A DNA stretch of 64,000 nt from Streptomyces sp. V1I1 (GTDB taxonomy: Bacteria > Actinomycetota > Actinomycetes > Streptomycetales > Streptomycetaceae). Of this stretch, positions 40,176 through 64,000 are shown in pieces. The translations under genes were made by a program, and so were the position numbers. The stretch covers positions 1,860,001-1,924,000 of the forward strand of contig NZ_JAUSZH010000001.1 of NCBI RefSeq assembly GCF_030817355.1. The letters run 5' to 3'. The notes under the pieces are model-generated. The model searched no databases, was not told the origin of the DNA, and was given only the letters and a program-made list of their open reading frames with translations. Numbering within the stretch: the first letter of the stretch is position 1; every line of letters begins with the position of its first letter.

Positions 40176-41558
40176 TCAATCGCTGTCTTTCGGTCGGATG
40201 TTGTGGTTGAACCGGAACAGGTTGTGCGGATCGTGCAGCGTCTTTACGCGTCGCAGCCGCTCGAAGTCCTCGGCCGCGAAGAGTTCCCGCACCTGCTCCT
40301 GGCGGACCGGGGCGCCGTCGTTGTAGACGGAGTTGAGGCTGCGGCCGACGGTCCACTGCTTCAGGGCGTCGTAGACGCGCTGGTGGACCGGCCGGGCTGC
40401 GGTGGACGGCGCGGCCGTGCCGCCGGTCATCACTCGCAGCATGTACGCGGCGTCACGGCCCCCGACCGCGCCCGGATCGGTGGGCCGGCGGGCGAAGGCC
40501 CCGCCGAGGTGACGGATGTCGACGATGCAGGGGACGGTCGCATCGGGTCCGGCCACCTCCACGACGGTCCGCAGGGCCCTGGGATCGAGTTCGCTCAGCA
40601 GGACGTTCCCGCCGAAGTAGGCATGCGGGACGTGCGGGTCCTGGTAGATGGTGCCGACCTCCGTGTACGGCATCTCCCGGACGGTGTCGATCAGACGCGG
40701 GCCGAGAGCGCGCAGGGGCGCCACGAGCCGTTCGCCCCCCTCGGCGGAGCCCGTGAAGGCGATCCGAACGTGTGCGACGTAGCGTCCGCGCAGCGGCTCG
40801 GGGACGGACGGCAACGGTGGGAAGGTCATGACGCCGATCGAGGAGGTGAGTTCCTCGGGCAGCGTGAGGGTCCACGCGCGGTAGGCCTGCAGCAGGTCGA
40901 CGGGGTGGTCCGCGGCGAAGTGGAGGCCGCCGCCGTAGATCCTGGTCACCGGCACGAGGGCGGTCTCGATGGCGGTGACGGCGCCGAAGTTGCCGCCGCC
41001 ACCGCGCAGCGCCCAGAACAGGTCGGTGTCGGATCCGGCCGTGACGTGGCGCAGCGCGCCGTCGGCGGTGACGATGTCGATGGCGCGGACGTAGTCGCTG
41101 GCGTAACCGGTCCGGCGGCCGAGCAGGCCGACACCGCCGCCGAGGAGGTAGCCGACGACGCCGATGTGCGGAGCTGAGCCGTTGACAGGGGCCAGACCGT
41201 ACGGGGCGGCCCGCTCGATGACCTCTCCCCACAGCACGCCGGCCTGGGCTCTGACGGTTCCGCCCTCCGCGTCCACCACGACGGCCTTCATCCGGCGGGT
41301 GGTGATGAGTACGCCCTCACCGTCCAGGGCCGTGACGATGCCGTGTCCGGTGGACTGCACGGCGACGGGCAGCCGCCGCTCGGCGGCGAAGCGGACCGCG
41401 GCGCGCACGTCCTCGGGGCGGGTGGCGCCGACGACGACGGCGGGCCGGTGCCGGAAGCCGGTCTGGAAACCGGTCCGTTCCTCGTCGTATCCTCGGCTGC
41501 CGGGCAGCAGGACGGGTCCTCGCACCTCCGCGGCCAGCGTCTCCACGTCCGCGCTCAT
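40176..41558 (-). CDS. FAD-linked oxidase, berberine-bridge-enzyme type
   Basis: 460-residue oxidoreductase with the PCMH-type FAD domain: PAVVVGATRPEDVRAAVRFA, then the QSTGHG histidine that typically bears 8-alpha-histidyl FAD, LLGGGVGLLGRRTGYASD, and a C-terminal BBE segment KTLHDPHNLFRFNHNI. ATG 41558 follows GGGAGGAGAAC; longer frames upstream overlap the next gene. It is the last gene on the left of the cluster. Enzymes of this family perform two-electron oxidations including ring formation and aromatisation, so a role in chromophore oxidation is possible, but it could also lie outside the pathway. Confidence 0.75.
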   Translation of the reverse strand: MSADVETLAAEVRGPVLLPGSRGYDEERTGFQTGFRHRPAVVVGATRPEDVRAAVRFAAERRLPVAVQSTGHGIVTALDGEGVLITTRRMKAVVVDAEGGTVRAQAGVLWGEVIERAAPYGLAPVNGSAPHIGVVGYLLGGGVGLLGRRTGYASDYVRAIDIVTADGALRHVTAGSDTDLFWALRGGGGNFGAVTAIETALVPVTRIYGGGLHFAADHPVDLLQAYRAWTLTLPEELTSSIGVMTFPPLPSVPEPLRGRYVAHVRIAFTGSAEGGERLVAPLRALGPRLIDTVREMPYTEVGTIYQDPHVPHAYFGGNVLLSELDPRALRTVVEVAGPDATVPCIVDIRHLGGAFARRPTDPGAVGGRDAAYMLRVMTGGTAAPSTAARPVHQRVYDALKQWTVGRSLNSVYNDGAPVRQEQVRELFAAEDFERLRRVKTLHDPHNLFRFNHNIRPKDSD

Positions 41559-41623
41559 CCGTTGTTCTCCTCCCGTGGACGGCGGGCCGCCGTCCCGTGT
41601 GTGCCGCCCGGTCGACTGGTCCG

Positions 41624-43006
41624 CTACCGCAGGTACGAGTTGTCCTGCACCCAGTGGAAGCCACGGCCGACCAGCGGGAAGGTGCCGAGATCGCGGCGGC
41701 GCAGATGCAGGCGGAGGTGGTAGCCGTCGGCGTCGCCCTCCAGGATCAGGCGGTCGTCGGCCGGGCGCTCGAAGGTGAACGTCACTTGCCACTTGGGGTC
41801 GGCCATCTTGGTCAGCGCGACCGAACGGGCGTTCATGTCGATCGCCGCCATGCAGGGGTCGAGCGAGTCGTCCATGTGCTGGATGGCCACGGCGTCGACG
41901 GAGTCCACGACGACTCGGCGCCAGCGCTGGCCGTCGGTCGTCATGGGCGGGTGCCGCTCGCCGTCGATGGAGAAGTCGGTGACGTCCCAGACGCCGTACA
42001 ACTCGGGCTTTTCCCGTCCGCCCCCGTGGTTCTTCCAGAACGACCAGTCGTTGCGCAGCTGTGCGCCGAGCAGCCAGAGCCCCGCCCCGGCCTGCAGTGC
42101 GGTGGCGATCCGGTTCGCCCGGCGGGAGCGGAAGAGGTCCGCGGGGGCGGCCGCGGGGACCCGGCGCTCCGTGAGCAGGGCTTCGGCCAGGCGAGGCGTG
42201 TGCGGGGCCAGCAGAAGCAGGCTGAGCAGGAGGAGGTGGAAGGAGTGGACCTTGACGGGGACGTCGAAGGTCATGTTGAGGAGAAGCACCTGGGCCATCT
42301 CCGCGGCCGACACCAGCGCGCCCAGCGACGCCGTGCGCGGAACGATGAGCAGCAGCCCGCCCGCGATCTCCGCACAGCCGAGCAGCATCTGGTACGGCTT
42401 CGAGGACCCCGTCTGCGCCCACAGCAGGCCCATCGGGCTGAGGTCGCCGAGCGGCTCGACGAGCTTGGACGGCGGCAGCTGGAACTGGAGCGGGACGGCC
42501 TTGGCCGCGCCGTAGGAGAACATCTGCCCCGCGAGGCAGAAACGGGCGGCCAGGCGGACCCACTTGTCCAGCGCCGCGTAGTCCGTCCGGTTCCGGTCCA
42601 GCACCGACCAGACCGGGGTGGCCGCGGCGGCGCCCGCGAGCCAGCAGAGCTGCCCCGCCCAGGTGTGCGGGTCGTCGCCGCCGTCGAAGCGGTCACCCAA
42701 CTCCCTGCCGAGGACCCGGAGGGACATCCAGTTCCGCACCGGGCGTACCTCCCAGAGCTTCGCCCAGGAGTCGGCCGCTTCCTGGAGACGCCCCATTCCG
42801 CCCCCGCGCAAGGCCAGATAGACCTGAGGGGAGGTCAGGCAGTACAGGCCGGCGTAGGCGAAACCGAACCGGTAGGCGGCGCGGGCGGCCCCGGTCCAGG
42901 GAGGCGGGGCCGGGGAGGCGCCGGCCGACGGGACCACCCGTCGGGCCGCCCGGCCGGCCGGTGAGGACGCGACGGTCCGCAGCCACTTGCCTACTCGCAC
43001 CTTCAT
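41624..43006 (-). CDS. DoxX-like multi-pass membrane protein
   Basis: 460-residue protein with several hydrophobic helices: AYRFGFAYAGLYCLTSPQVY, WAGQLCWLAGAAAATPVW, then MFSYGAAKAVPLQF and LLGCAEIAGGLLLIVP as in DoxX/HTTM-like proteins, and HSFHLLLLSLLLLAPHTP. A soluble C-terminal domain of about 150 residues begins near ELYGVWDVTDFSIDG. No cofactor motif is visible. It is co-directional with the oxidase and the methyltransferase. Function is unknown; it could serve in redox at the membrane or in export. Confidence 0.55.
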   Translation of the reverse strand: MKVRVGKWLRTVASSPAGRAARRVVPSAGASPAPPPWTGAARAAYRFGFAYAGLYCLTSPQVYLALRGGGMGRLQEAADSWAKLWEVRPVRNWMSLRVLGRELGDRFDGGDDPHTWAGQLCWLAGAAAATPVWSVLDRNRTDYAALDKWVRLAARFCLAGQMFSYGAAKAVPLQFQLPPSKLVEPLGDLSPMGLLWAQTGSSKPYQMLLGCAEIAGGLLLIVPRTASLGALVSAAEMAQVLLLNMTFDVPVKVHSFHLLLLSLLLLAPHTPRLAEALLTERRVPAAAPADLFRSRRANRIATALQAGAGLWLLGAQLRNDWSFWKNHGGGREKPELYGVWDVTDFSIDGERHPPMTTDGQRWRRVVVDSVDAVAIQHMDDSLDPCMAAIDMNARSVALTKMADPKWQVTFTFERPADDRLILEGDADGYHLRLHLRRRDLGTFPLVGRGFHWVQDNSYLR

Positions 43007-43046
43007 CGTTCATCACCTTCGCAAGGGCCGTCTTCGGTGGTCGCGG

Positions 43047-43769
43047 TCAGCTACGGCGGAAGCGTCCGAGCCAGGCGTGCACGTCGAGGAGTTCGGACGT
43101 GGTCGGGATGATGCCCCGTATGTGGGTCTCGTCGATCGACTCCACCGTCCAGCCGTCGGCGAAGCCGTGGCGCAAGTGGTCGGCGGAGCGCTTGAGGCCG
43201 GGCGGCTCGTCGTTGTCCGGAAGCGGCGCCGGTATCTCCTCGATGGCCTCGGCGAGCCGCGCCTGCATCTCCGCGGACCCCCGGTCGCTGATCGAGAGGA
43301 TGTGCGCCACCGCCCCCGGGCGGCAGGCCCGGTGCAGGGCCGCCGCGTAGGAACGCAGAGTGTCGCCCTCGAAGGTGTGGGCGAGGCCGGAGTCGATCAC
43401 GGTGTCGAAGCGCCCTTCCCAGCCCTTGAGGTCGAGGGCGTCGGCGACTTCGAAGACGGCGTCGAGTCCGCGTGCCCCCGCCTTGTCCCGGGCGAGGGAG
43501 ATCGCCGTCGGGGACAGGTCCAACCCTGTCACCGCGTACCCCTTGCCCGCCAGGTGGAGGGCGTCCTCACCGGTGCCGCAGCCCGCGTCGAGGACCGCGC
43601 CGCCGATGAGTCCCGCTTCCTCAAGGGCGACGTAGGCGGGCTGGGGCGCCCCGATGTCCCACGGCGGGCGTTTGCCGAAAGGGCTCTCCCCGCGGTAAAC
43701 GGCGTCGAACACCTCGGTCATCGGGGCGGGTCCGTCGGGTGCGGCGACAGGTTCAGTCATGGCTGCCAT
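43047..43769 (-). CDS. SAM-dependent methyltransferase, Ecm18-like candidate
   Basis: 240-residue class I methyltransferase: SAM motif I VLDAGCGTGEDALHLAG, acidic motif II region GLDLSP, and motif III-type FDTVIDSGLAHTF. In echinomycin biosynthesis a small methyltransferase of this size (Ecm18) turns the disulfide bridge of triostin into a thioacetal. Position beside the dithiol oxidase, exporter and UvrA-like genes supports the same role, but sequence alone cannot separate it from other small methyltransferases. ATG 43769 is chosen over 43760; the two differ by three residues. Confidence 0.7.
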   Translation of the reverse strand: MAAMTEPVAAPDGPAPMTEVFDAVYRGESPFGKRPPWDIGAPQPAYVALEEAGLIGGAVLDAGCGTGEDALHLAGKGYAVTGLDLSPTAISLARDKAGARGLDAVFEVADALDLKGWEGRFDTVIDSGLAHTFEGDTLRSYAAALHRACRPGAVAHILSISDRGSAEMQARLAEAIEEIPAPLPDNDEPPGLKRSADHLRHGFADGWTVESIDETHIRGIIPTTSELLDVHAWLGRFRRS

Positions 43770-43837
43770 GATTGCGTCGCCCCCCGGTGCGTCCTCGGTC
43801 TCTTGCGGACTTCTGTCAGGGAGGCACCGCCCGCCGG

Positions 43838-44652
43838 TCAGCGCGAGCCGTACTTGCGGACCGCGAGCGGGGCGAACACCGCGATCAGGCCGACCGACCA
43901 GGCCACGGTCTGGAGGACGTAGCTCGTCGCCGGGCCCCCGGTGAACAGTGCGCGCAGGGCGTTCACGGCCGCCGTCATGGGGCTGTGGGCAGCGTACGCC
44001 TGGAGCCAGCCCGGCATCGTGTCGGTAGGTACGAACGCCGAGGAGATCAGTGTGAACGGGAAGATCCACACGCCGCCGACCGCCTGGGCGGCTTCCGCGT
44101 TGCGCACCGACAGCCCGAGGTAGGCGGCGAACCACGACACCGCGTAGCCGAACAGCAGCAACAGCAGCAGGTCGGCCAGCGCGGGCAGGAGGCCGTTGTG
44201 GAACCGGAAGCCGACCAGCACGCCGACTCCCACGGTCACACAGGCCACGCCGACGTTGCGGAAGATCTCCGACAGCGTGCGTCCGATGAGCACGGCGGTA
44301 CGGCTCATCGGCATCGAGCGGAAGCGGTCCATGAGGCCCTCGCGCATCTCGGCGGCGACCCCGATGGTCGTGCCGGCGGCGGAGCCGTAGAGCGCCATCT
44401 GGACGAGGACGCCGGGCAGTAGGAACTGGGCGTAGCGTTCGCCGCCGACGTCCATGGCGCCGCCGAAGACGTACGTGAACAGCAGGATGAACATCACCGG
44501 CTGGACCAGCGAGAACATCACCAGATCGGGGCTGCGCAGCACGTGCCGCACGTTGCGCAGGGTCATCTGCCACACGTCGGAGAGCCACCACCCGAAGGTG
44601 TTCCGCGACTGCGTGTACGACGTGCCGCTCTCCCGTGTCAGGGTGGTGGAGG

Positions 44653-44656
<4 letters not shown>
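43838..44656 (-). CDS. ABC-2 transporter permease, DrrB type
   Basis: 272-residue permease with about six membrane helices: SLVQPVMFILLFTYVFGGAM near the start, LLPGVLVQMALYGSAAGTTI, and MREGLMDRFRSMPMSRTAVL, the typical ABC2 signature loop. Its ATG overlaps the ATPase stop (ATGA). It should export the cluster's product together with that ATPase, as DrrAB does for daunorubicin. Confidence 0.85.
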
Positions 44657-45636
<980 letters not shown>

Positions 45637-45698
45637 CTGCCGTGGTTCCTTTCCGGATCCGACGCAACCCTGAATTGAGTGGTGGCGGGGCAACCGGT

Positions 45699-46637
45699 TC
45701 AGCGGCGCACAGCGCCGAGCAACGCCGACATGTGGATGGCGTCGGCGGCCGCGGCGCCCGCCGCGGCCGACACGGTGACCGACTGCTTCCAGCGGCTGGT
45801 CAGGTCCCCGGCCGCGTACAGGCCCGGAACGCTGGTGCACTGGGAGGCGTCGACGCCGATGAAGCCGGCGTCGTCGACCGTCAGCTTCAGCTCTTCGGCG
45901 GTCCGCCTGACGACGGGTTGCTGCCGCTGTCGTGGCGTCCAGACCAGTGTCTCCCGCTCCAGGACCCGGCCGTCGTCCAACTCGACTGCGTACAAAGCCC
46001 CTTGGCGGTGGTGCAGGCGGCGGACCGTTCCCGTGACGACCTCGCCCCCGCTGCTCCGCGCCGTCGCGCGAGCGGTCTCCAGGCCGGGCATGGACTCCTG
46101 GCAGATCGCGATGGTGTCCTCACTCCAGGCGAGGAAGGCCACGGCCGACAGTCCCGCGAGTTCCGCGTTGTCGGCGACGGTCGCCCAGCGCCCGCCGGCG
46201 TTCTCCTCGCCGAGGCAGAACGGACAGTGGATCACGCTGCGGCCCCAGCACTCCGCGAAACCGTCCACGTCGGCCGGGTGGACGTCCACGACACCGGTGG
46301 CGAGCAGAACGGTTCGGGCCTCGACGGTCTCACCGCCGCCGACGGCGACCCGGAAGCCTCCGCCCGGAGCGGGGGTCACACTTTCGGCGTCGGCCTCCAG
46401 CCGCTCGACGGTCGCGTACCGGGAGAGTTCCCGCCAGGCGCGCGCCCGGAACTCGCCGGGCGTGACGCCGTCCATTCCGACATGGCCGTGAACACCCGCC
46501 GACGCGCTGTTGCGCGGTGCCCGAGGGCTGTCCACGACGGTCACCGGGTGCCGGTATCTGGCCAGGCTGAGCGCCGCGGTGAGCCCGGCGGGGCCGGCTC
46601 CCACGATCACGGTGGTGTGGTCGGCGTGCGAGGACAT
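45699..46637 (-). CDS. Thioredoxin-reductase-like dithiol oxidase, Ecm17/GliT/HlmI type
   Basis: 312-residue flavoprotein: FAD-binding TTVIVGAGPAGLTAALSLAR, the redox-active CxxC in SVIHCPFCLGEE (C138 and C141), NAD-type second domain and a C-terminal GLYAAGDLTSRWKQSVTVSA. Enzymes of this group close disulfide bonds in natural products such as echinomycin, gliotoxin and holomycin. The cluster predicts two N-methyl-cysteines per dimer, which gives an obvious substrate. ATG 46637 is used because GAAGGGA lies upstream. A housekeeping thioredoxin reductase is unlikely given the position and the divergent CPFC motif. Confidence 0.85.
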   Translation of the reverse strand: MSSHADHTTVIVGAGPAGLTAALSLARYRHPVTVVDSPRAPRNSASAGVHGHVGMDGVTPGEFRARAWRELSRYATVERLEADAESVTPAPGGGFRVAVGGGETVEARTVLLATGVVDVHPADVDGFAECWGRSVIHCPFCLGEENAGGRWATVADNAELAGLSAVAFLAWSEDTIAICQESMPGLETARATARSSGGEVVTGTVRRLHHRQGALYAVELDDGRVLERETLVWTPRQRQQPVVRRTAEELKLTVDDAGFIGVDASQCTSVPGLYAAGDLTSRWKQSVTVSAAAGAAAADAIHMSALLGAVRR

Positions 46638-46920
46638 CGGTCTGATCCCTTCCGTCGGGCGGCGTGAGCGGGGTCCGTCCACCGTGGGTGCGGTCCGGCA
46701 GGCGCGCGGTGGGGAACGCCGGAACGGGCTGTCAGCGGGCGGAGGCCGTCGGCCCGCATTGTGGTCGCCGCCGCGGTGCGGGAGAGGTACGGGCGAAAGA
46801 GGTGAGCCAGACAGTCGTGCGCGTACGGCGGTGTGAGCAACGTCGACTTTCGGCCCGGCGCAGGCCGGCCACGGTCAACGCCCCCTGTCACCAGGCGGGG
46901 GCCGGGCGGGCCGCGTCGTG

Positions 46921-49299
<2,379 letters not shown>

Positions 49300-49403
49300 G
49301 TTGTCCCTCCCGTTTGTCGGACGCGGCATGCCTTCGTCAGGTGACGTGGTGACGAGTTCCTGAACGTCCCGGTTCATGGGACTCAAGCGTATACCTGCAA
49401 AGT

Positions 49404-49458
49404 CGGTTGAGGCTTTTGGGGGAGCTACGCGGATTCTTTAGGATAAAGTCTCAAACCG
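49404..49458. promoter_or_regulatory. Inverted repeat upstream of MerR-type gene
   Basis: CGGTTGAGGCTTT at 49404 and AAAGTCTCAAACCG ending at the GTG start form an imperfect inverted repeat (one gap, one mismatch). It is a plausible operator for autoregulation and for control of the divergent uvrA-like gene. Confidence 0.4.
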
Positions 49459-50231
49459 TGAAGCACCTGCGTCCGTTCGACCTGGCCCGTGAGCACGGCA
49501 TCTCCACCCAGGCGGTCCGCAACTACGAGCGGGACGGGTTCATCCCGCTCGCCCAGCGCACCCCGTCCGGCTACCGCACCTACACCGAGACCCACGCGGC
49601 GGCCCTGCGCGCCTATCTGGCGCTCGTCCAGGCGTACGGGTACGCCACGGGCGGAGAGATCATGCGGTCGCTCAACACCGGCGACCTCGACGCCGCGCTG
49701 ACGGCCGTCGACCGCGGCCACGCCCAACTGCTCCGCGACCGAAGCACGCTGGACGCGGTGGGACGGGCGGTGGAGCACCTCACCTCCGCCCCCGGCCTCG
49801 CCGAGCACACGTCCGCCGGCAGCGAGCCGCTGAGCATCGGCGAACTCGCGCGCCGTCTGGGGGTGACCGCGGCGACCCTGCGGAACTGGGAAGCGGTGGG
49901 CATCCTGACCCCGGCGCGCGAGCCAGTCACCGGCCACCGCTCGTTCGACGCCCCGGACGTACGCGACGCCGAGCTGACCCATCTCCTGCGGCGCGGGGGC
50001 TACCCGCTGGAGCACATCCGCACGGTGGTCCGGCAGATCCGCACGGCCGGCGGCACCGAGGCGCTGTCCGCCGCCCTCGACGACTGGCGGCGACGGCTCA
50101 CAGCACGCGGCGTATCCATGCTCGGCGCGGCGGCCCAGCTCGGCGGGTACGTGGCCCATTTGGGCGTCCCAGCCGGACCGCCGGCCACCACGGAACCGGC
50201 TCCCGCGCCGGGGCCCCCGCCGACGGTTTGA
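49458..50231 (+). CDS. MerR-type regulator with two helix-turn-helix domains
   Basis: 257-residue protein starting at GTG 49458. The first MerR DNA-binding domain is FDLAREHGISTQAVRNYERD followed by GFIPLAQR; a second complete one appears near residue 128 as LSIGELARRLGVTAATLRNW followed by EAVGILTPAR. MerR proteins normally have one such domain and a coiled coil; here the halves are joined by a helical linker. It is divergent from the uvrA-like gene and upstream of the esterase-like gene, so it may sense the product or DNA damage. Confidence 0.8.
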   Translation: MKHLRPFDLAREHGISTQAVRNYERDGFIPLAQRTPSGYRTYTETHAAALRAYLALVQAYGYATGGEIMRSLNTGDLDAALTAVDRGHAQLLRDRSTLDAVGRAVEHLTSAPGLAEHTSAGSEPLSIGELARRLGVTAATLRNWEAVGILTPAREPVTGHRSFDAPDVRDAELTHLLRRGGYPLEHIRTVVRQIRTAGGTEALSAALDDWRRRLTARGVSMLGAAAQLGGYVAHLGVPAGPPATTEPAPAPGPPPTV

Positions 50232-50298
50232 GACCTCGCGGCCCGGTGTGTCCGACCGCTGCACCGCGGCATCGCAGTAAGCCTCAACGGGTCTTTCA

Positions 50299-51501
50299 AT
50301 GATTCGATTGACAGACATGAGCAAGGACTTTCACGACCTTCCCGTGGCCTCGTGTGCTGTGCTGGCGCTCGGCGAACCCACCCACCGGGAGCCCGCCTTC
50401 GGGTGGGTGCGCAACGAGCTGTTCGCCCGACTGGCCGAAATCGGCTTCCGCTCGATCGCCCTGGAGACCGACCGCGTGGCCGCGCTGCGCGTCGACGACT
50501 TCGTCAAGGGCGGCGACGGGGATCTCGGCGAGGTGACGCGGGAGGGCTTCTCCCACGACTTCGGGAACCTGGAGACCAACCGGTGCCTCGTCGCCTGGAT
50601 GCGCGACCACAACACGAGCCGGCCGCCGGAGGAGCGGCTGAGCTTTCACGGCTTCGACGTCCCTACGGAGACGACGAGTGCCCCCAGCCCGCGGCGCTGT
50701 CTCGAATTCGCCCGGGAGTATCTGCGGCTCGACCTCGACCTCGCCGGGCTGCTGGGCGCGGACGAGCAGTGGAGCCGTGCGGAGGCGGTGATGGACCCGG
50801 CCATGTCGGTCGGCGCCACGCCCGAGGCCGAGCGGCTGTGGTCCCTCGCCGACGACATGCTCACCCTGCTCCACTCCAACGCCGCCGAGCGGATCGCGCA
50901 GACCTCGCGCGCGGAGTGGCTCCGGGCCAGGGCACACCTCACCGCCGGCCTCGGTCTGCTGCGCTACCACCGGCAGGCGGCCCAGCGCCTGGAGAACAAC
51001 GACCGGCTGTCCCGGCTGTTCGCCACCCGGGACGCGCTCATGGCGCAGAACCTCCTCGACATCCGCAGCATCGAGGGCCGCCGGGGCGCGACCCTGGTCT
51101 TCGCCCACAATGTGCACCTCCAGCGGACCCCGAGCACCTGGAGCCTGGGAGACCTGTCCGTCAACTGGCCCGGGGCGGGCACCGTCGTGGCACCGCTGCT
51201 GGGCGAGCAGTACGTCTTCATCGTCGGCAGCCTGGGGCGCAGCGAGGCCGTCGGGCTGGGCGATCCCGAGCCGGGCACCTACGAGAGCCGCCTACAGGAC
51301 CGCGTCACCGATTGGGCCATGGCCCCCACCGGCAAGGTCGCCTCCGCCCGGACCCGGACGGACACCACCCCGCAGCAGGGCTACTTCCCGCTCGACCGGG
51401 CCACGCTGGACACCGCCGACGCGGTCCTGCACGTCAGCGACGGCGCCGCCGTCAGCCGGGACCTCCTGCGCGTACCCGCCGGTGCTGGGAGCGGGTACTG
51501 A
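50299..51501 (+). CDS. Erythromycin-esterase-like protein
   Basis: 400-residue member of the EreA/EreB (erythromycin esterase, PF05139) superfamily. The catalytic region reads VLALGEPTHREPAFGWVRNE followed by ALETDR, and the second histidine motif is VFAHNVHLQR, corresponding to AHNxH in Ere proteins. Ere enzymes open macrolide lactones by hydrolysis; others in the family are uncharacterised. Situated between the MerR-type regulator and the A-T protein in one orientation, it should be co-expressed with the chromophore genes. It could hydrolyse an ester or thioester intermediate or protect against the depsipeptide. Start uncertain (50299 or 50317). Confidence 0.7.
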   Translation: MIRLTDMSKDFHDLPVASCAVLALGEPTHREPAFGWVRNELFARLAEIGFRSIALETDRVAALRVDDFVKGGDGDLGEVTREGFSHDFGNLETNRCLVAWMRDHNTSRPPEERLSFHGFDVPTETTSAPSPRRCLEFAREYLRLDLDLAGLLGADEQWSRAEAVMDPAMSVGATPEAERLWSLADDMLTLLHSNAAERIAQTSRAEWLRARAHLTAGLGLLRYHRQAAQRLENNDRLSRLFATRDALMAQNLLDIRSIEGRRGATLVFAHNVHLQRTPSTWSLGDLSVNWPGAGTVVAPLLGEQYVFIVGSLGRSEAVGLGDPEPGTYESRLQDRVTDWAMAPTGKVASARTRTDTTPQQGYFPLDRATLDTADAVLHVSDGAAVSRDLLRVPAGAGSGY

Positions 51502-53351: not shown

Positions 53352-53357
53352 CGGCCG

Positions 53358-54545
53358 TCAGCGGAAGGCGACCGGCAGGCTGCCGTAGCCGTTCAGGAAG
53401 TTGGAGTAGATCGGTGTGGGCTTGCCGCACACCTCGATCTCGTTGACCGACTCGGTGAGCGCGCTCAGCAGTGCGCGCAGTTCCGTCCGGCCGAGGAACG
53501 CGCCGACGCAGAAGTGCGGGCCGTGGCCGAAGGAGAGGTGCTTGTTGGGCGAGCGGGCCGGGTCGAACCGGCGCGGCTGGTCGAACACCTCCTCGTCGTT
53601 GTTGGCGGAGGTGTTCCACAGCGTCACGATGTCGCCCGCGCGCACCCGCCGGCCGCCTATCTCCATGTCCCGGGTCGCGGTGCGGGCGAAGTGCATGGCT
53701 GGCGTGGCCCAGCGCAGTACTTCCTCGACCGCCGTGTCGATCGCGGCCGACCCTTCGCGCAGCGCCCGCCACTGGGCGGGGTGCTCGGCGAACGTCTTCA
53801 CCGCGCAGATCGCGGACACGCGGGAGGACTCGTCGCCGCCGAGCACGAGGCTGTAGCAGTTGAGAGCGACCTCCTCCAGCGTCAGCGGGCGGTCTCCCAG
53901 CTCCGCCGTCGCGATCATGCTGATGACGTCGTCGCCGGGGTCGCCGCGGCGGTGCCGGGCGAGGTCCATGAAGTAACCGATGATCTCGTTCCGGGCCTCC
54001 AGGGAGTCCAGCCTGTCGGACTCGGCGTCGTGCGAGGAGAGGGCCAGCTTGTTCCAGCGCAGCAGCTTCTCGCGGTCCGCCTCCGGAATGGAGAGCAAAT
54101 CACAGATCGTGTTCATCGGAATGTGCTCGGCGACCTCCGCCGCGAAGTCGAACTCGCCCTGCCCGGTGACGGTCTTGATGAGCCCTGACGTCCGTTCCCA
54201 TATCTTCTGTTCGACCGCGCCGAGGACGCGCGGGGAGAAGGCGCGCAGCATCAGGTTGCGCAGTTCGCGGTGGCGGGGCCGGTCGGTGACCGCGAGCATC
54301 TTGCCGCCTGCCGAGTCACCGCCGCTCAGAAGGACGTCCAGCACGGTCCCGCGAGCGGAACTCAGGGATCGTACGTCGGCGTAGCAGGACAGCACGTCGG
54401 CGTGGCGGGCGACGACCCAGAAGCCGGGGTCCCCCTGGTGCCAGTACACGGGCCGGGACTTCCGCACGTCGCGCCAGAACTCGTATGCGTCGTGCCGTAC
54501 GAAGGCGGTCGCGTCGGTCAGGTCCAGCTCGGTCGGGATGGTCAT
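53358..54545 (-). CDS. Cytochrome P450, PCP-amino-acid beta-hydroxylase type
   Basis: 395-residue bacterial class I P450. Heme ligand C346 lies in SFGHGPHFCVGAFLGR, the I-helix reads VLGGDESSR in place of the usual AGxDT, and the K-helix ExxR is in EEVLRWATP. NikQ/NovI-type enzymes with this motif set hydroxylate the beta-carbon of carrier-bound amino acids. Lying tail to tail with the A-T gene and divergent from the dioxygenase-like gene, it likely hydroxylates carrier-bound tryptophan as in the quinoxaline and quinaldic acid pathways. Confidence 0.85.
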   Translation of the reverse strand: MTIPTELDLTDATAFVRHDAYEFWRDVRKSRPVYWHQGDPGFWVVARHADVLSCYADVRSLSSARGTVLDVLLSGGDSAGGKMLAVTDRPRHRELRNLMLRAFSPRVLGAVEQKIWERTSGLIKTVTGQGEFDFAAEVAEHIPMNTICDLLSIPEADREKLLRWNKLALSSHDAESDRLDSLEARNEIIGYFMDLARHRRGDPGDDVISMIATAELGDRPLTLEEVALNCYSLVLGGDESSRVSAICAVKTFAEHPAQWRALREGSAAIDTAVEEVLRWATPAMHFARTATRDMEIGGRRVRAGDIVTLWNTSANNDEEVFDQPRRFDPARSPNKHLSFGHGPHFCVGAFLGRTELRALLSALTESVNEIEVCGKPTPIYSNFLNGYGSLPVAFR

Positions 54546-54732: not shown

Positions 54733-55428
54733 TTGAGCAGTCTGACGTATGCGGACTATCTCCGAATGGAGAGTCTGCTTTCGCTCCAGGAGCCGCGGAC
54801 CCCACACACGGCCGGCCGTGCGGTCGTCCTGGCCGAGCAGTTCTTCATCATCACCCACCAGTCCTGCGAGCTGTGGCTGAAGCAGCTCGGGGCTGATCTG
54901 GACGCCGCTGCCGAGGCGCTCCTGCCGCCCTGTGACACGCACGATCTGGAGCTCGGGCTCGAATTCCTGCTGCGGTCCGGCGAGTTGATACGGGTGCTCC
55001 AGCAGCAGCTTCTGGTGCTGGAGAAACTGCCACTGCGTTACTTCGCCGAGTTCCGGTCCTACCTGGACACGGCGAGCGGCGCGCAGTCCGCGCAGTTCCG
55101 GCGGCTGACCACGCTGCTGGGCAACAGCCACCACCAGGGCAGTCTCTACGAGGTGTTCGCGGCGGCGGTCGAGTACCACGGGCAGACCGTGGACGACGTC
55201 TGCCGACGTGGCGTGGAGTCCGGCGTGCTGCACCGCCTCGCGGAAGCGCTGGTGGACCTGGGGAACGGGTACTGGCACTGGAAAGTGGCACACCTGGCAC
55301 TGGTGTCCAAGATGGTCGGGGAGCAGGGCGGAACCGGCGGGTCGAGCGGTGTCGACTTCCTCGCCCGCCGAGTCACCCGGCCCTTCCCCGAACTTCGCCG
55401 GCTGCGCGGGAAGGTGCACCACCCATAG
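54733..55428 (+). CDS. Tryptophan 2,3-dioxygenase-like heme enzyme
   Basis: 231-residue TDO-family protein. Conserved elements: YADYLRMESLLSLQ, FFIITHQSCELWLKQL with the distal H42, ASGAQSAQFR, and the proximal heme ligand H187 in WKVAHLALVSKMVG, followed by GTGGSSGVDFL. It is shorter than catabolic TDOs (about 280). In quinoxaline and 3-hydroxyquinaldic acid biosynthesis (Ecm11, TioF) such an enzyme opens the indole ring of beta-hydroxytryptophan to the kynurenine stage. Divergent from the P450. TDO-like monooxygenases (MarE) are an alternative reaction type. Confidence 0.85.
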   Translation: MSSLTYADYLRMESLLSLQEPRTPHTAGRAVVLAEQFFIITHQSCELWLKQLGADLDAAAEALLPPCDTHDLELGLEFLLRSGELIRVLQQQLLVLEKLPLRYFAEFRSYLDTASGAQSAQFRRLTTLLGNSHHQGSLYEVFAAAVEYHGQTVDDVCRRGVESGVLHRLAEALVDLGNGYWHWKVAHLALVSKMVGEQGGTGGSSGVDFLARRVTRPFPELRRLRGKVHHP

Positions 55429-55799: not shown

Positions 55800-56303
55800 C
55801 TAGCCGGCCTCGGTCTCCAGCGCATAACCGCGCCCCCAGGCCGTGCGGATGACCAGGTCGGTCGGTAAGAGACGGCGGCGAAGCCGCATGATGTGGAGGT
55901 CGAGCGAATTCCTCGTCGGCCTCTGCACGCAGTCCGCCAGCCGTTGAGTGAGTTCATGCCGGTACACCACCTCCCCGAAGTGCTCGATGAGCAGTTCCAT
56001 CAATTCGGTCTGGACATTCGAGATAGTGATCGAGTGCGGTCCGTAGCTGAGCGTTCCGGCGGAGTCGAGGGTTGGTATCTGCCGGTCGTCGAGCCGGTTC
56101 TGGAGAGCTTTGACCCGGGCGTCGAGATCCTCCCGGGAGATGGGCGCTCGGACCCAGTCTTCGAACGGATCGTTGCAGACTGGCGGACGGGCACCCGCCT
56201 CCACTACGAGGAGACGGGGTACGCCGTCCCTCTTACATCGGTTCCGAAGGTCTATTTGTGCCGGCCATCGGACGAACATGACATCGCTGGTTGTGCACCC
56301 CAC
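55800..56303 (-). CDS. Winged-helix (OmpR/PhoB-type) regulator with degenerate receiver
   Basis: 167-residue protein. The C-terminal half is an OmpR-type DNA-binding domain: ISNVQTELMELLIEHFGEVV, RHELTQRLADCV, then LDLHIMRLRRRLLPTDLVIR and TAWGRGYALE. The N-terminal half (LLVVEAGARPP, DWVRAPISREDLDARVKALQ) resembles the end of a receiver domain but lacks the phosphorylated aspartate region. It is probably phosphorylation-independent and is the only activator-type gene in this part of the cluster. Start could also be ATG 56279. Confidence 0.7.
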   Translation of the reverse strand: MGCTTSDVMFVRWPAQIDLRNRCKRDGVPRLLVVEAGARPPVCNDPFEDWVRAPISREDLDARVKALQNRLDDRQIPTLDSAGTLSYGPHSITISNVQTELMELLIEHFGEVVYRHELTQRLADCVQRPTRNSLDLHIMRLRRRLLPTDLVIRTAWGRGYALETEAG

Positions 56304-56490
56304 AGCACACGCCTCCCCGTCGACGCAAAGAGATGGTCACTGTCATCGCCGGCCGACGGCGTTCTTGTGTCGGCCGAGCACGCGTAAAGGGCCTGAGCCG
56401 TGGTGGTCTGGTTCGGTCTCCACGGCCTCGACCGCAGAGGCGCCGCGCTTCCTCAGGTCAGCATCCGCGACGGCGCCTCACCGCACGGCC

Positions 56491-56703
56491 TCAGCCGTTC
56501 ATCGCCTCCCGGAGACTGCGCGGCCGCATGTCGGTCCAGTGCTCCTCCACGTAGGCGACGCTCTCCGCTCTTGCGGCGGGGCCGAAGACGCTGCGCCACC
56601 CGGCGGGCACCTCGGCGAATGCCGGCCAGAGGGAGTGCTGGTCCTCGTCGTTGACCAGCACGTGGAACTGGCCGTTCTCATCGTCGAACGGATTGGTGCT
56701 CAC
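56491..56703 (-). CDS. MbtH-family NRPS accessory protein
   Basis: 70-residue MbtH protein: [33 protein letters not shown] and the closing CxR-type region [13 protein letters not shown]. It binds adenylation domains and is needed for activity or solubility of many of them. GTG 56703 with GGAGG upstream. It lies 47 bases after the NRPS stop and probably serves both the NRPS and the A-T protein. Confidence 0.9.
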
Positions 56704-56750
56704 CTGTGTCCTCCAGAACTCGTTCCACCAGTTGGGGCTTCGAAACAGGA

Positions 56751-59700
56751 TCAATGCGCTGCCCGCAGATACCGGTTGATGGCGCGGCTGATCTCAGCCG
56801 CGTTCCGCGGCCAGTACATCTCGCTGTGAGCGCAGGCGATGTCGATGCGCTGCACACGACCGTCGACGTGCTCCTGCCAGAGCACGTCCAGTTCCTCGTC
56901 CAGTTCCCGCTTGTCGTGGGTCTCCGGGTCGAGAAGTGCGTTGAAGAAGACGACGTCACCGCGGTACAGCGGTGAGGTGAACCGCCGCATCTGCTCCATC
57001 TGTCCGATGAAGATCGAGGAGGCGGTGGTGACCAGCGACGGGTACTCCTCCATCCCCGCCAGGTGTCCCATGTAGTTGGCGAGGTAGCGGCGGACCATGG
57101 CCTCGTCCAGCGCTTCCAGGTCGGCGAAGTGGCTGGAGGGCGCAGCGTCCAGCAGCGCCAGGAGTGCCACCTCATGTCCGCGGCGCTGGAGTTCGGCCGC
57201 CATGGCGTGCGCGAGAGTGCCACCGAAGGACCAGCCCAGCAGGTGGTAGGGGCCGCTCGGCTGGACCTGGAGCACCTGCCCGAGATAGTCCTCGACCATC
57301 TCCTCGATGGAGCCGGCCGGCGGGGTGGTGCCGTCGAAGCCGCGTGCCTGGATGCCGTACAGCGGCCAGGACGGCTCGACGTGGCGGGCGAATCCCAGGT
57401 AGGGCCAGCTCAACCCGCCACCCGGGTGCAGCCACCACAGCGGGGGCCGGTGCCCCTCGGTGCGGATCGGCAGCAGGACGGCGAACGGGTCCTCGAAGTC
57501 GGCCTCGGTGTCGGCGGACAGCTGTGCCGCCAGTGCGGCTACGGTCGGGTACTGGAATACCGTGCGGATCGGGACGTCCACACCCAGCTTCTCGTGGATC
57601 CGCCAGACGAGGCGCGTCAGCCGCAGGGAGTGGCCGCCACAGGCGAAGAAGTCGTCGTCGATGCCGATCCGGTCCATGCCCAGCACCTCGGCGAAGAGCG
57701 CGGCGAGTTCCTCCTCGCGCGGGGTGCGCGGGGCCCGGTGTTCGCCGCCGACCGGGTCCGGCTCGGGAAGCGCGGCACGGTCCACCTTGCCGTTCTCGGT
57801 GAGCGGCAGCCGGTCGAGGACGACGATGTCGGCGGGCATCATGAACTCCGGGAGCCGGCCTGCGAGCCGCTCGCGCAGCAGGGAAGGCAGCCGGGAGACG
57901 CGGCGGGAGACCGCGGGCACGTTCGCCAGCCGGGCCGAGCTGGCGCCGGCGGGCCGGTAGAGGCCGTCGCAGCAGACGGCGTCGACTTCGGGCATGACGA
58001 TCGCTTCGAAGCAGTCACCCGCCTGTGCCGACCAGGTGCAGTACACCGCGAGCCCGCGCCGGGCTCCCCATGCCTCCAGGTCGGCGGGGTCGAGGGTGCC
58101 GCCCACTTCGGCGGGGGCGCCCCACTCGGCGGCCTCGCCGGCCAGGCGGGTGTTGGGGATACGGGTCAGGCGCAGCCGGCCGCCCTGGCGGGCCAGCGCG
58201 GTCTCCAGGTCGGCTAGTTCGCGGACCTCCGCTCCCCAGACCTCCTCAGGCAGGTCACCGAGGTGCAATGGCCTCGCGGGCGCCTTGTGCAGCACGACCT
58301 CGTAGCGGTGGCGAGTCAGCTCGTTGTGGTGGGTGCCCTGCTTGAGGCGGATGTCGGCGGCAACGGCGTCCGGCCGGGTCTCGGCCCAGCGGGTGAAGAA
58401 GCCCGGGTCGACGACGAGTTCCTTCTCGCCGAGCACCGCGCGCTCGACGGCGGCCTGTACGGCGGCCGGGCCGTCGTCGGGCTGCCGGCAGCGGTGGACC
58501 GCGGCGGCGAACGTGCGCAGGGTGCGGTAATTGCGGACGTCGCCGATCACGACACGTCCGCCGGGTGCGAGCCGGTCCATCGCGAGGTCGAGCACCCGGG
58601 TGAGGTAGTCGGCGTCCGGGAAGTACTGCAGGACCGAGTTGAGGATCACCGTGTCGAAGTACCCGGTGGGCAGGCCCTCGGCGTCGTCGGCGGGCTGGCA
58701 GCGCAGGGTCACCTTGTCCGACAGCACCGGGTCGGCGCCGGTCCGGGCGCGCAGCCGTTCGACGACGGGGGCCGAGAAGTCGGTGCCCCAGTACTCCTCG
58801 GCCTCCGGTGCGAGCGGGCCGAGCAGCAGGCCGGAGCCGACACCGATCTCCAGCACCCGGCGCGGGCGCAGAGACCGTACCCGTCGCAGCACGGCCTCGC
58901 GCCAGGCCCGCATCTCGGGGAGCGGGATGGGGCGGCTCGTGTAGGAGCTGTTCCAGCCGGTGAAGTCCTCGGACTCGTCGGTGTCGACCTCCGTCCCGCC
59001 GTACATGGTGTCGTAGATCTCGCGCCACTCGCCGACCTGTTCGGCGGCGTCGCGGCCCGTGGACACGGAGCCGTCGGGCACCACGTAGGCGACCATGCGG
59101 CGTTCACCGAGCCGGTCCTGACGCACGGTGACCACCGCGTTCGCCACGCCGTCCTCTTCGCGCAGGACCGTTTCCAGCTCACCAGGCTCGACGCGGAAGC
59201 CGCGCAGCTTGATCTGCTCGTCGCTGCGGCTGATGTACTGAAGGCAGCCGGCGGTGTTCCAGCGCACCAGGTCGCCGGTGCGGTACATCCGCGCCCCGGA
59301 CTGTCCGGACGGGTCGGGCACGAACCGGGTGGCGGTCAGGCCCGGCCGGCCCGCGTAACCGCGCGCCACGCCGTCGCCGCCGATGTACAGCTCGCCCACC
59401 ACGCCGGGCGGCACCGGCAGCAGCCGGTCGTCCAGGACGAGGAGCCGGCTGCCGTCCATCGGGCTGCCGATGGGCAGCGGGTCGGTGCACTCCGCCGCAG
59501 AGGCCACCCGGTGCCGGGAGGCGAACGTGGTGGTCTCGGTCGGGCCGTAGCCGTTGACCACGGTGACGCCGGGACAGGCGTCGAGCACCGCGCGGACGGC
59601 GGTCGGCGAGAGGACGTCGCCGCCCGCCCACACCTCCTGGACGGCGCCGAAGCACTCGGCGTGCTGTTCGGCCATCACGGCGAACAGTCCGGCGGTCAGC

Positions 59701-62700
59701 CACAGCCCCGTCACCTCCCGCTCGGTGATCACCCGGGCGAGTTCCGCGGTGTCCGGCCGGCCGGCGCGAGCCACCACGGCCGTGCCGCCGCCGAGCAGCG
59801 GCACCCACATCTCGTACGTCGACGCGTCGAAGGTGTGCGGCGAGTGGAGGAGGACGCGGTGGTGGGCCCCGGTGCCGAAGCAGCCGTCGAGCGCGAGGTC
59901 GACGACGTTCCGGTGGGTCACCTCCACGCCCTTGGGTCGGCCGGTGGAACCCGAGGTGTACATCACGTAGGCGACAGCGTGCTCGCCGACGCCCTCCGTC
60001 TCGGGCGGCGAGTCGGGCAGCCCGTCGAGATCCTCCTCGGCGAGGTCCTCGTACACGGTGACGGCCGGGGCGAGGTCCGCGAGCAGGTAGTCGATGCGCT
60101 CGGGCGGGTAGGTGGGGTCGACCGGCACGTAGGCGGCGCCGGTCTTGAGGACGCCGAGGACGGCGGCGACCAGCAGCGGCGAGCGTTCCAGCACGAGCGC
60201 GACGCGGCTGTCCGGGCGGGCGCCGCGGGCCCGGAAGTGGTGGGCGAGGCGGTTGGCCCAGCGGTCCAGTTCGGCGTAGGTCCAGGCGAGCGTGCCGTCC
60301 GCGGAGACCAGCACGGTCGCGTCCGGGGTCGCCGCGGCCGTGGCGGCGAACCGCTCGGGAAGGGTGCCGGCGTCGAACCGGGCGTCCCGGCCTCCGCCGC
60401 CCCAGCCGCTGAGCGCGGCGCGCTCGTGCTCGGCCAGGACGCCGACGGATCCGATGGGCGTCTCCGGCGCGGCGACCACCTGGCGCAGGAAGTGCAGCCA
60501 GCGGTCGAGCAGCGTGCTGACCGTCCCGGCGTCGAACAGCTCGGTGGCGTACTCCGCGAAGCCCTCGATACGGGCCGGCGCGCCGTCCTCGTCCTGTTCG
60601 GTGACGCTGATGAACAGGTCGAAGCGGGAGGTGCCCGGGGAGAACGGCTCCTCGGTCACGGTCAGGCCCGCCAGGTGGAACTCCGGCCGCGCGTTGTTCT
60701 GGAGCGCCAGGCACACCTGGAACAGCGGGTGGTGGGCGGGCGAGCGGACCGGGTTGAGCTTCTCGACCTGGTGCTCGAAGGGGATGTCCTGGTGGTCGTA
60801 GGCGGCGAGGCTGCTCTCGCGGACCCGGCCGACGAGCTCGGCGAAGGAGGGGTCGCCCGAGGTGTCCGCGCGCAACACCCACGTGTTGACGAAGAAGCCG
60901 ACCAACCGGTTGAGCGCCTCGTCGGTGCGTCCGGCGATGGGCGAGCCGATCGACACGTCCGTGCCCGCGCCGAGCCTGGTGAGCAGCGCGGCAAGGGCCG
61001 CCTGGAGCACCATCGACACCGTGGCACCGGTCTCCCGGGCCAGCCTGCGCACGCCGTCGGTGAGCTGCGGGTCGAGTGCGAGCGGCACCAGGTCGCCGGC
61101 GTACGACGCCGCGGCGGGCCGGGGCCGGTCGGCGGGCGGCGAGACGGTCTCGGGCAGGCCGGCCAGCTGGGTGGTCCAGTAGTCCAGCTGCCGCCGGTAG
61201 AGGCTGCCCGGGGTGTCGGTGTCGCCCAGCAGTTCCCGCTGCCAGAGGGTGTAGTCGGCGTACTGCACGGGAAGCGGTTCCCACTCGGGCGCCCGGCCTG
61301 CGCGGCGGGCCTCGTACGCGGTGGTGAGGTCCTGGGCCAGCGGGAGGGCGGACCAGCCGTCGGCGGCGATGTGGTGTGCGCCGATCAGGAACACCGCCTC
61401 GCGCTCGCCGGTCCGCAGCAGCCAGGAGCGGATGGGGATCTCGGCCGCCAGGTCGAACGGGCGGCGCGCCGCCGCCCGCAGGGCGCCGGGCAGCTCGGCC
61501 TCGGTGATCTCGCGCTCCTCCCACGGGACCTCGACCAGGGCCGGTTCCAGGATGCGCTGGTACGGCTGTCCGTCCGCCTCACCGAAGACGGTGCGCAGCG
61601 ATTCGTGCCGCACGACGACGTCGTGCACGGCGCGGCGCAGGGCCGCCGCGTCGAGTTCGCCGCGCATGCGCAGAGCCAGCGTGACGTTGTAGGTCGCCGA
61701 GGGTCCCTCGAAGCGGTGTATGAACCACAGCCGCTGCTGGGCGTACGACAGCGGCAGCCGTTCGGGCCGGACCTGGGGACGGAGCGGCGGGCGGACGTTG
61801 CTCAGGGTGTTCAGGTGGGCCGCCAGCTCGGCGACGGTGGGCGACTGGAAGACGACCCGGATGGGGATCTCCACACCGTGCTCGGCACGGATACGGCTGA
61901 CCAGCCGGGTGGCCAGGAGCGAGTGGCCGCCGACGGTGAAGAAGTTGTCGTCCACGCCGACCTGGTCGAGTCCGAGTACCGCGGCGAACAGCGCGCACAG
62001 CGACTCCTCCTCCGGGGTGGAGGGAGCCCGGCCGCCGCCGACCACGTAGTCGGGCACGGGCAGGGCGCGCCGGTCGGGCTTGCCGTTGTCGGTCAGCGGC
62101 ACGGCGGCGATGGGCACGATGGCGGCCGGGACCATGTACTCGGGCAAGGTCTCCCGCAGATGGCCGCGCAGGGCGGGCAGCAGCGCCGTGACGGCGGCGG
62201 CGGCCGCGGGGTCGTTCGCCGGGGTGCGTCCGTCGGTGGCCGGCAGGTACGTGCCGGTGAGGGTGGTGCCGGCGGCCGGGCCGTCGCGCAGCACGATCAC
62301 GTCGAGCAGGTCGACCGCGTCGGCCGACCAGGTCGGCACCGCGTCCCAGCCGTGCCGGGCGGCCCAGGCGCGGATCTCGGCGGGGTCGAGCGGGGGCAGT
62401 TCGGGCGGCGCGGAGTCGTCGAGGCCGAGGGCGCGGGCTGCCGCGGCCTCCTCGGTGAGGCGGGCGTTCGGGATTCCGGTGATCCGCACCGCCGGCTCGG
62501 ACCGGTCACGTAACCGGTCGGCGAGCCGGCCGAGGTCGCCCTCCCAGGTCAGGGTGGGGACGACGTCGAGCCGTCGCGGGGCGTCCGCCGGTGCCGTGCC
62601 CGGCTTGTGCAGCACGACCTCGTAGCGGTGCCGGGTCAGCTCGTTGTGGTGGATGCCGTTCTTGGCGCGGATGTCGGCACCGGTCGCCCCGGCCCGGTCT

Positions 62701-64000
62701 GCCCAGCGCAGGAACCACTCGGGGTCGACCACCAGTTCCTTCTCCAGCAGGACGGCCTGGTCGACCGTGGTGCGCAGTACGGCCGGTGCCGCATCGGGGT
62801 GCTTCGTCCGCTGGACGCCCGTCTGGAGCGTGCGCAGGGAGGACGCCCGCCGGATGTCGCCGAGGACGATCCGGCCGCCCGGCGCGAGCAGTTCCCAGGC
62901 GCCGTCCAGGACCCGGGCGAGGTAGCGCTCGTCGGGGAAGTACTGCACGACCGAGTTGAGCACCACGGTGTCGAATGTGCCCCGGGGCAGTCCGGTGAGG
63001 TCGTCGGCGGCCTGGCGGCGCAGCCGGACCCGGTCGGCCAGGCCGGCCCGGGTCACCTGGTCGCTGAGCCGGTCGATCACGGCCTGGGAGAAGTCGGTGG
63101 CCCAGTACTCCTCCACCCGGCCGGCGATGTGCGCGAGCAGGAGTCCGGTGCCGACGCCGAGTTCGAGGACGCGCTCGGGCGACCAGCACAGGACGCGTTC
63201 CACGGCGGCGTCGCGCCAGTCCCGCATCTCGTCGAGCGGGATCGGCTCGCCGGTGAAGGAGCTGCTCCAGCCGGTGAAGTCCTCACCGAATCCGTGTCCG
63301 TTGTCGTGGGAGTAGGCCTGGTCGTATACCTCCTGCCACTCCCCCACCTGTTCGTCGGCGTCGTCGTCGGGCCGCAGGGCGCCGGTGTCCGGGACGACGT
63401 AGGCGACCAGCCGCAGGTCACCGGGCCGGTCCTCGCGGGCGGTGACGATGGCTTGGCGGACGGCCGGGTGCCGGACCAGGGTGTGTTCGATCTCGCCGGG
63501 CTCGACGCGGAATCCGCGCAGCTTGACCTGGTTGTCGGCGCGGCCGAGGAAGCAGATGTTGCCGTCCGGGAAGAAACTGGCGCGGTCGCCGGTGCGGTAC
63601 AGCCTGTCGCCCTCACGCGCGCTGAACGGGTCGCGGACGAAACGTTCCGCGGTCAGCTCGGGCCGGTTGACGTAGCCGACGCAGAGGCAGTCCCCGCCGA
63701 TGTACAGGTCGCCCTCGACGCCGACGGGGCACGGCTCCATGTTCTCGTCGAGCACGTAGTAGCGGGCGTTGTCGATGGGACGGCCGTACGGAATGCTGCG
63801 CCAGGCCGGGTCGATCTCCCGGACCCGGAAGTAGTTGGACCACACCGTCGCCTCGGTGGCACCGCCGAGGCTGACGATCTCCGCGCCGGTGAACACCCGG
63901 CGGACCTCGTCGGGCAGCGACAGCGGGGTGTAGTCGCCGGAGAGGAACACCAGGCGCAGGTCGTCGGTGCCCTCGTACCCGCCGTCCTCCGTGAGCAAGG
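56751..64000 (-). CDS. Terminal NRPS, A-MT-T-C-A-MT-T-TE (5' end beyond window)
   Basis: 2415 residues are visible; numbering is from the right edge. First A domain (partial, 1-205) with LVFLSGD and [12 protein letters not shown], an N-methyltransferase inserted between A8 and A9 (206-470, VLELGVGTG), T (S693). C domain (745-1190, HHIAADG at 875). Second A (1213-1645; D1391; code read as DAYWVAGTFK), second N-MT (1650-1905), T (S2124). Thioesterase with GWSFGG (S2257), D2284 and H2391. The partial first code fits Cys and the second fits Val. This is the Ecm7/TrsJ layout, in which N-Me-Cys and N-Me-Val are added and the TE dimerises and cyclises two peptide halves. The first C domain and start lie past 64000. 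Confidence 0.9.

Follow-up and report, generated by a model that had tools for sequence, protein, structure and literature searches.

A gene cluster of the echinomycin type in Streptomyces sp. V1I1 and a small conserved ABM-fold gene beside its chromophore genes

We analyzed a 64,000-nucleotide stretch of DNA from Streptomyces sp. V1I1 (the window; G000:C1:1860001-1924000, inside a contig of 8.27 Mb) for a gene cluster at its right end, which an initial annotation had assigned to the quinoxaline/quinoline-type bisintercalators. The chromosome to the right of the window was also included, and coordinates above 64000 continue the numbering of the window. Genes were called from open reading frames (ORFs), Pfam, NCBIfam, a Protein Data Bank (PDB) match for the UvrA-like protein and inspection of start sites. 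The cluster was found to run on to about position 79730, as the initial annotation had anticipated in placing its right end outside the window, with a right part of about 15.7 kb (ORFs, Pfam) beyond position 64000. All parts that had been named (the adenylation-thiolation (A-T) protein, P450, tryptophan 2,3-dioxygenase (TDO), MbtH protein, nonribosomal peptide synthetase (NRPS), oxidase, methyltransferase, UvrA-like protein and ABC pair) were located as claimed by ORFs, Pfam, NCBIfam and PDB, and a MerR-type regulator was found as an additional gene. The genes are as follows, with percentages giving likeness to the relatives described below.

40176..41558, minus strand: BBE-type FAD oxidase, syntenic neighbour (Pfam FAD_binding_4 and BBE; start site)
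41624..43006, minus strand: DoxX-like membrane protein, Qui9/TrsL counterpart (homologue list; 65-92% in relatives)
43047..43721 or 43769, minus strand: S-adenosylmethionine (SAM) methyltransferase, Ecm18/TrsK/Qui8 counterpart, predicted to convert disulfide to thioacetal (Pfam; match to PDB 4NEC)
43838..44656, minus strand: ABC-2 permease, TrsE-type (Pfam ABC2_membrane; table in PMC3578932)
44653..45636, minus strand: DrrA-like ABC ATPase, TrsD-type (Pfam ABC_tran and DrrA1-3_C; 77-91% in 8/9 relatives)
45699..46637, minus strand: flavin dithiol oxidase with a CPFC motif, Ecm17/TrsN/Qui11 counterpart (Pfam Pyr_redox_2; 73-92% in 9/9 relatives)
46921..49299, minus strand: UvrA-like self-resistance protein, Ecm16/TrsM/Qui10 counterpart (PDB 7SH1; 88-97% in 9/9 relatives)
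~49407..50231, plus strand: MerR-type regulator, divergent from the UvrA-like gene (Pfam MerR_1; 9/9 relatives)
50299..51501, plus strand: erythromycin-esterase-like protein, Ecm14/TrsF/Qui3 counterpart (Pfam Erythro_esteras; table in PMC3578932; 7/9 relatives)
51591..53351, plus strand: stand-alone A-T NRPS protein, predicted to load Trp, Ecm13/TrsR/Qui18 counterpart (motifs; code DAWVMTGVG; NCBIfam)
53358..54545, minus strand: P450, predicted to beta-hydroxylate carrier-bound Trp, Ecm12/TrsB/Qui15 counterpart (Pfam p450; 67-95% in relatives)
54733..55428, plus strand: short TDO of 231 aa, Ecm11 counterpart (Pfam Trp_dioxygenase; tree)
55800..56303, minus strand: winged-helix regulator, Ecm9/TrsG/Qui4 counterpart (Pfam Trans_reg_C; table in PMC3578932)
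~56491..56703, minus strand: MbtH-like protein, Ecm8/TrsH/Qui5 counterpart (Pfam MbtH; start site)
56751..64000 in the window, start at ~66155 outside it, minus strand: terminal NRPS, Ecm7/TrsI/Qui6 counterpart (motifs, codes)
66164-74107 (frame; start not fixed), minus strand: first NRPS (motifs)
74221-74559 (G000:C1:1934221-1934559): 112-aa ABM-fold protein, adjoining the FAD monooxygenase gene
74550-75926: FAD monooxygenase, Ecm4-like (Pfam FAD_binding_3)
75993-77027: isocitrate/isopropylmalate-dehydrogenase-like protein, Ecm3-like (Pfam Iso_dh)
77035-77781: type II thioesterase
78144-79730, plus strand: dihydroxybenzoate (DHB)-type AMP ligase, Ecm1/TrsA/Qui16 counterpart (NCBIfam; 82-96% in ten named relatives)

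A further NRPS and the remaining chromophore genes, which had been expected to the right of the window, were both found there. Genes typical of a quinoxaline cluster are all present (Trp-loading A-T protein, MbtH, P450, type II thioesterase, TDO, Ecm4/Ecm3-like enzymes, both NRPSs and AMP ligase), as are those of the echinomycin subtype, namely an intact Ecm17-type oxidase, an Ecm18-type methyltransferase and an Ecm16-type UvrA-like gene.

The assembly line was read from motif order as condensation (C), adenylation (A), thiolation (T), epimerization (E), methylation (M) and thioesterase (TE) domains, arranged C-A-T-E-C-A-T in the first NRPS and C-A-M-T-C-A-M-T-TE in the terminal NRPS. Specificity codes comprise the nine variable positions of the PheA scheme, the tenth (Lys) being appended and not read from the sequence. 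By this approach, the codes DVWHVSLVD (module 1), DILQITLVY (module 2), DLFDFSLVW (third) and DAYWWGGTF (fourth) were obtained for the NRPSs and DAWVMTGVG for the A-T protein. We take DVWHVSLVD to specify Ser, DLFDFSLVW a Cys-like residue and DAYWWGGTF Val. All five codes are identical in S. cupreus and S. narbonensis, and S. echinatus differs at a single residue of the third (Cys-like). The suggestion that the product may be new was thus not borne out, as the adenylation codes are those of other echinomycin-type clusters; a new peptide scaffold was likewise rejected, since codes and module order equal those of relatives. The same domain layout has been given for Qui7 and Qui6 (PMC3578932).

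When named genomes were scanned with the FAD monooxygenase, 11 loci were obtained (92% identity in S. echinatus, 94% in S. cupreus and 91% in S. narbonensis), and both this enzyme and the Iso_dh protein have relatives in all 11 genomes. Nine relatives, each with most or all of the cluster covered, were compared: S. echinatus, S. cupreus, S. narbonensis, sp. I6, sp. ADI96-02, S. typhae, S. diastatochromogenes, sp. A3M-1-3 and G389; XM83C, BK340 and Lentzea flava were seen in part. All 21 cluster genes have same-order orthologues in S. echinatus, S. cupreus and S. narbonensis, so chance is not at issue. The block is collinear with these three and with sp. I6 at a per-protein identity of about 79-99%, and the gene order of the window is kept in seven of the nine, missing genes aside; S. 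diastatochromogenes and A3M-1-3 have a different arrangement and the other TDO class. Full-length alignments of the terminal NRPS gave 83-93% in 7/9 relatives, and the top alignment was incomplete in the other two, sp. I6 and S. diastatochromogenes; for sp. I6, the two NRPSs were covered to no more than 46% and 82% by their best alignments. MerR and ABM genes are present in all nine relatives, the ABC pair in eight (not S. typhae), the esterase in seven and the BBE gene in five (84-93% in four, 82% in G389), while no MbtH match was detected in S. typhae at E <= 1e-10. The FAD monooxygenase was found in 6/392 genomes of the genus at E <= 1e-120, the window's own included. A decayed cluster was considered and rejected, since the reading frames of all 21 genes are open.

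The esterase, DoxX-like and BBE genes had been set apart as extras matching no known cluster, a description that does not hold: the first two are standard members, and the BBE gene recurs in relatives as counted above. Homologues of the DoxX-like protein include those of S. triostinicus (67%) and the SW-163 producer SNA15896 (61% over 91%). The Ecm14-type esterase, one proposed remover of the formyl group, has no match of note in S. typhae and is a 23-residue remnant in G389, though most of the cluster is present in both.

Comparison with known clusters gave a similar picture. Although the gene order had been described as matching no known cluster, it corresponds to that of S. echinatus and to the ecm numbering: from right to left lie counterparts of ecm1, 2, 3, 4, 6, 7, 8, 9, 11, 12, 13, 14, 16, 17 and 18, such that every ecm gene of S. 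lasaliensis in the table of PMC3578932 has a counterpart here in number order, if the ecm numbers follow gene position in that strain. In S. echinatus CECT 3313 (L026-L028), the whole set of 21 genes, BBE through AMP ligase, occurs in the same order and on the same strands at about 89-96% protein identity. Unlike S. lasaliensis, the window has the ABC pair (PMC7093587), and the ABM gene probably occupies the position taken by a transposase in S. lasaliensis, judging from the account of that locus (PMC7093587). All 18 gene types tabulated for the triostin (trs) and echinomycin (qui) clusters are found here, the ABC pair included, but trs and qui have another gene arrangement and another class of TDO (PMC3578932). 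The cluster of ADI96-02 has the same order, including the ABC pair, ABM and MerR genes, at 76-89% identity; by contrast, no BBE gene was detected in the 60 kb compared. This strain makes echinomycin, checked against a standard, together with echinoserine, and its cluster is reported to hold a gene for a putative monooxygenase, at whose place S. lasaliensis has a transposase, along with two ABC genes that S. lasaliensis lacks (PMC7093587).

The tailoring and resistance proteins were also closely matched. The methyltransferase frame is intact, with 446 bits to PDB 4NEC, which a review gives as Ecm18 (PMC10491745), and 94% likeness to the S. echinatus copy; the presumed Ecm18 His115, its proposed base, appears conserved by eye when the numbering is corrected for an inferred 20-residue tag. 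For the UvrA-like protein, a score of 1653 bits was obtained to PDB 7SH1, which is Ecm16 (PMC10192343), and 96.5% to the S. echinatus copy. UvrA-like homologues occur in 387/392 genus genomes at E <= 1e-180, mostly at 75-78% among those listed, and are too loose for counting clusters; the genome of the window encodes another at C1:6883429 (77%). Three genomes that lack the FAD monooxygenase (L106, L109, L112) have an 85-89% UvrA-like gene beside a divergent MerR gene (73-82%), and no other cluster gene above 32% was detected in the 60 kb fetched from each. Therefore, the MerR/UvrA-like pair exists as a free-standing unit.

A TDO tree of 28 rows was built, leaving out the partial TDO of G018 and the TDO of sp. 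XM83C. The 21 short TDOs, that of the window included, form one group (100/99) with many inner forks unresolved, apart from the TDOs of S. diastatochromogenes, A3M-1-3 and BK340 and from primary-type TDOs. In agreement with the Ecm11-like assignment made initially, the short TDO thus groups with TDOs of echinomycin-type clusters, in a tree that does not hold Ecm11 itself. The use of two unlike TDO classes by quinomycin-family clusters has already been published (PMC3578932). An ordinary TDO is also encoded in the genome at C1:3810058.

Taken together, gene content, gene order, domain layout, codes and orthology indicate that the locus is almost certainly orthologous to the cluster for echinomycin (quinomycin A), a DNA-binding antibiotic. 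This confidence attaches to the identity of the cluster and overlaps with the triostin alternative below, which concerns the main product only. The cluster is complete, ordinary and of an already known kind, save for one small conserved ABM gene. Echinomycin is the best prediction for its product, because ADI96-02, which has a collinear cluster lacking only the BBE gene, is an echinomycin producer (PMC7093587).

By the published pathway, Trp would be loaded on the A-T protein with the help of MbtH and then beta-hydroxylated by the P450. The type II thioesterase would release beta-hydroxylated Trp, the short TDO would open the indole ring, and the FAD monooxygenase and isopropylmalate-dehydrogenase-like enzyme would convert beta-hydroxykynurenine to quinoxaline-2-carboxylate. 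After activation of this acid by the AMP ligase, the two NRPSs would add D-Ser, Ala, N-Me-Cys and N-Me-Val. The TE would dimerise and cyclise the product, the flavin oxidase would close the disulfide and the methyltransferase would make the thioacetal, with the UvrA-like protein and ABC pair predicted to serve self-resistance and export.

Three points weigh against an echinomycin assignment. The product, like enzyme activity and expression, is predicted here from the genes alone. Module 2 is assigned to Ala by analogy with the family, as its code DILQITLVY alone would not settle the matter. The ABM, MerR and BBE genes are absent from the qui/ecm table (PMC3578932), and an oxidised or other congener is possible.

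Among the alternatives, a pathway that halts at the disulfide, with triostin A as the main product, is unlikely. S. triostinicus carries TrsK but produces mostly triostin A, a weak promoter being the explanation given by its authors (PMC3578932), whereas the methyltransferase gene here has an open frame and encodes a close Ecm18 orthologue, 94% like the S. echinatus protein; this evidence concerns the sequence of the protein and not promoter strength.

It is quite improbable that the BBE oxidase or the ABM protein modifies the product to give a new quinomycin congener. The genes for both proteins are missing from the published 18-gene table (PMC3578932), and the ADI96-02 authors speculated that the pattern of oxidation could be altered by an extra monooxygenase (PMC7093587). 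However, ADI96-02 has the ABM gene and yet makes echinomycin and echinoserine (PMC7093587), and S. echinatus, known for echinomycin at the level of the species, carries both BBE (91%) and ABM (95%). The unchanged codes also argue against this alternative.

Only a negligible chance was assigned to a 3-hydroxyquinaldate-type (thiocoraline or SW-163-like) cluster: A-T, P450, TDO, MbtH and UvrA-like genes are common to that type, as is the DoxX-like gene to the SW-163 producer, but the FAD monooxygenase and isopropylmalate-dehydrogenase-like genes mark the quinoxaline branch, the codes for Ser, Cys-like and Val fit echinomycin instead, and no aminotransferase was found among the Pfam matches, Ecm4/Ecm3 types being present in place of an aminotransferase and oxidoreductase of TioG/TioH type. 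Thus, the bisintercalator class proposed initially stands and its type is narrowed to quinoxaline, the 3-hydroxyquinaldate type being refuted by gene content.

With the locus read as an echinomycin cluster, the 112-aa ABM-fold protein is the one part that stands out. Its gene overlaps that of the FAD monooxygenase by 10 bases and was found directly beside it in 16/16 loci of relatives examined; with duplicates removed, these represent 13 genomes (11 named, G389 and G336), and with the window's own 14/14 genomes having the FAD monooxygenase. Strong ABM matches (at least 57%) occur in exactly the six of 392 genus genomes with the FAD monooxygenase. At E <= 1e-5 an ABM match is found in 173/392 genomes, the others reaching at most 43% among the matches listed (next best by E-value, 40%). 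No Pfam family was assigned to the protein at E <= 0.001; the ABM model was matched at E <= 1 by 24 of 25 members of its family (best 3.5e-05). Structure prediction gave the fold strand-helix-strand-strand-helix-helix-strand, at middling confidence (pLDDT 63.8, pTM 0.51), and Foldseek gave 13 matches at E <= 0.001, including ABM-family proteins, the monooxygenase RslO4 and olivetolic acid cyclase.

Association of the ABM gene with chromophore genes was also apparent outside bisintercalator clusters. G336 (L061-L063, G336:C1:3784001-3844000) has a quinoxaline cassette of A-T (60%), P450 (65%), TDO (56%), FAD monooxygenase (57%), ABM (56%) and dehydrogenase (70%) genes, and in the 80 kb fetched no bisintercalator NRPSs, ligase or methyltransferase were detected. 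Instead, a tryptophan halogenase, a luciferase-like monooxygenase, two single-module NRPSs and a weak chorismatase-like match were found; the product is perhaps a halogenated quinoxaline or related compound. Since this genome has the ABM gene and chromophore cassette without the peptide NRPSs, the ABM gene follows the chromophore genes and not the peptide genes.

Short TDOs were found at E <= 1e-40 in 17 genus genomes, five of which have the FAD monooxygenase and a strong ABM match; in G044, the one further genome carrying both, the TDO is of the other class. The remaining 12 have neither at these cut-offs, some with weak ABM-family matches elsewhere. Around the TDOs of these 12, six carry A-T and P450 relatives (50-69%), with an AMP ligase (64%) also in G356, and G018 has a partial dehydrogenase-like match (63%). 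These loci may belong to other beta-hydroxykynurenine-derived pathways.

The ABM protein is not in the 18-gene qui table of PMC3578932, and our literature search found no paper on it in the quinoxaline pathway; its gene is very probably the putative monooxygenase mentioned in PMC7093587. We tentatively consider that the protein might be a partner dedicated to the oxidative rearrangement, itself poorly resolved, that yields quinoxaline-2-carboxylate, for example raising the yield or fidelity of the Ecm4/Ecm3 steps, although the odds are somewhat against this. By analogy only, AlpJ-family oxygenases, which are ActVA-Orf6-like, cleave C-C bonds in another aromatic pathway (PMC11181247). The idea of an essential quinoxaline enzyme was weakened by S. 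lasaliensis, an echinomycin producer in which a transposase occupies the position of that gene (PMC7093587). As this strain probably lacks ABM yet makes echinomycin, the protein may be accessory. Reportedly, no genes other than those of the ecm set were needed for production in E. coli; a system in that host is available for derivatives of triostin and echinomycin.

The locus thus brings a further likely echinomycin producer, whose cluster is well assembled. Its value is comparative, in offering testable points on chromophore formation: an ABM gene that tracks the quinoxaline FAD monooxygenase, an esterase missing or a remnant in 2/9 relatives, and a halogenase-linked cassette.

On the left, DNA similarity to relatives ends at about 40168, just past the BBE gene. 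Beside the S. echinatus cluster (L026:5500-14240) lie genes for an A-T protein, long TDO, hydrolase, tryptophan halogenase, flavin reductase, kynureninase and P450. S. cupreus and S. narbonensis have this set as well; the window lacks it. On the right, an IS110-type transposase (80506-81759) stands between the AMP ligase and the right flank and has no match in the relatives' stretches compared; genes beyond it were taken as outside the cluster. The right flank, from a RumA-like gene onward, is shared with S. cupreus and sp. XM83C, there without the IS110 element, and was not found beside the S. echinatus cluster. Left of the cluster, at 37560-39192, short frames that are ParB-like and MFS (major facilitator superfamily)-like by eye have no counterparts in the relatives' stretches and are perhaps remnants.

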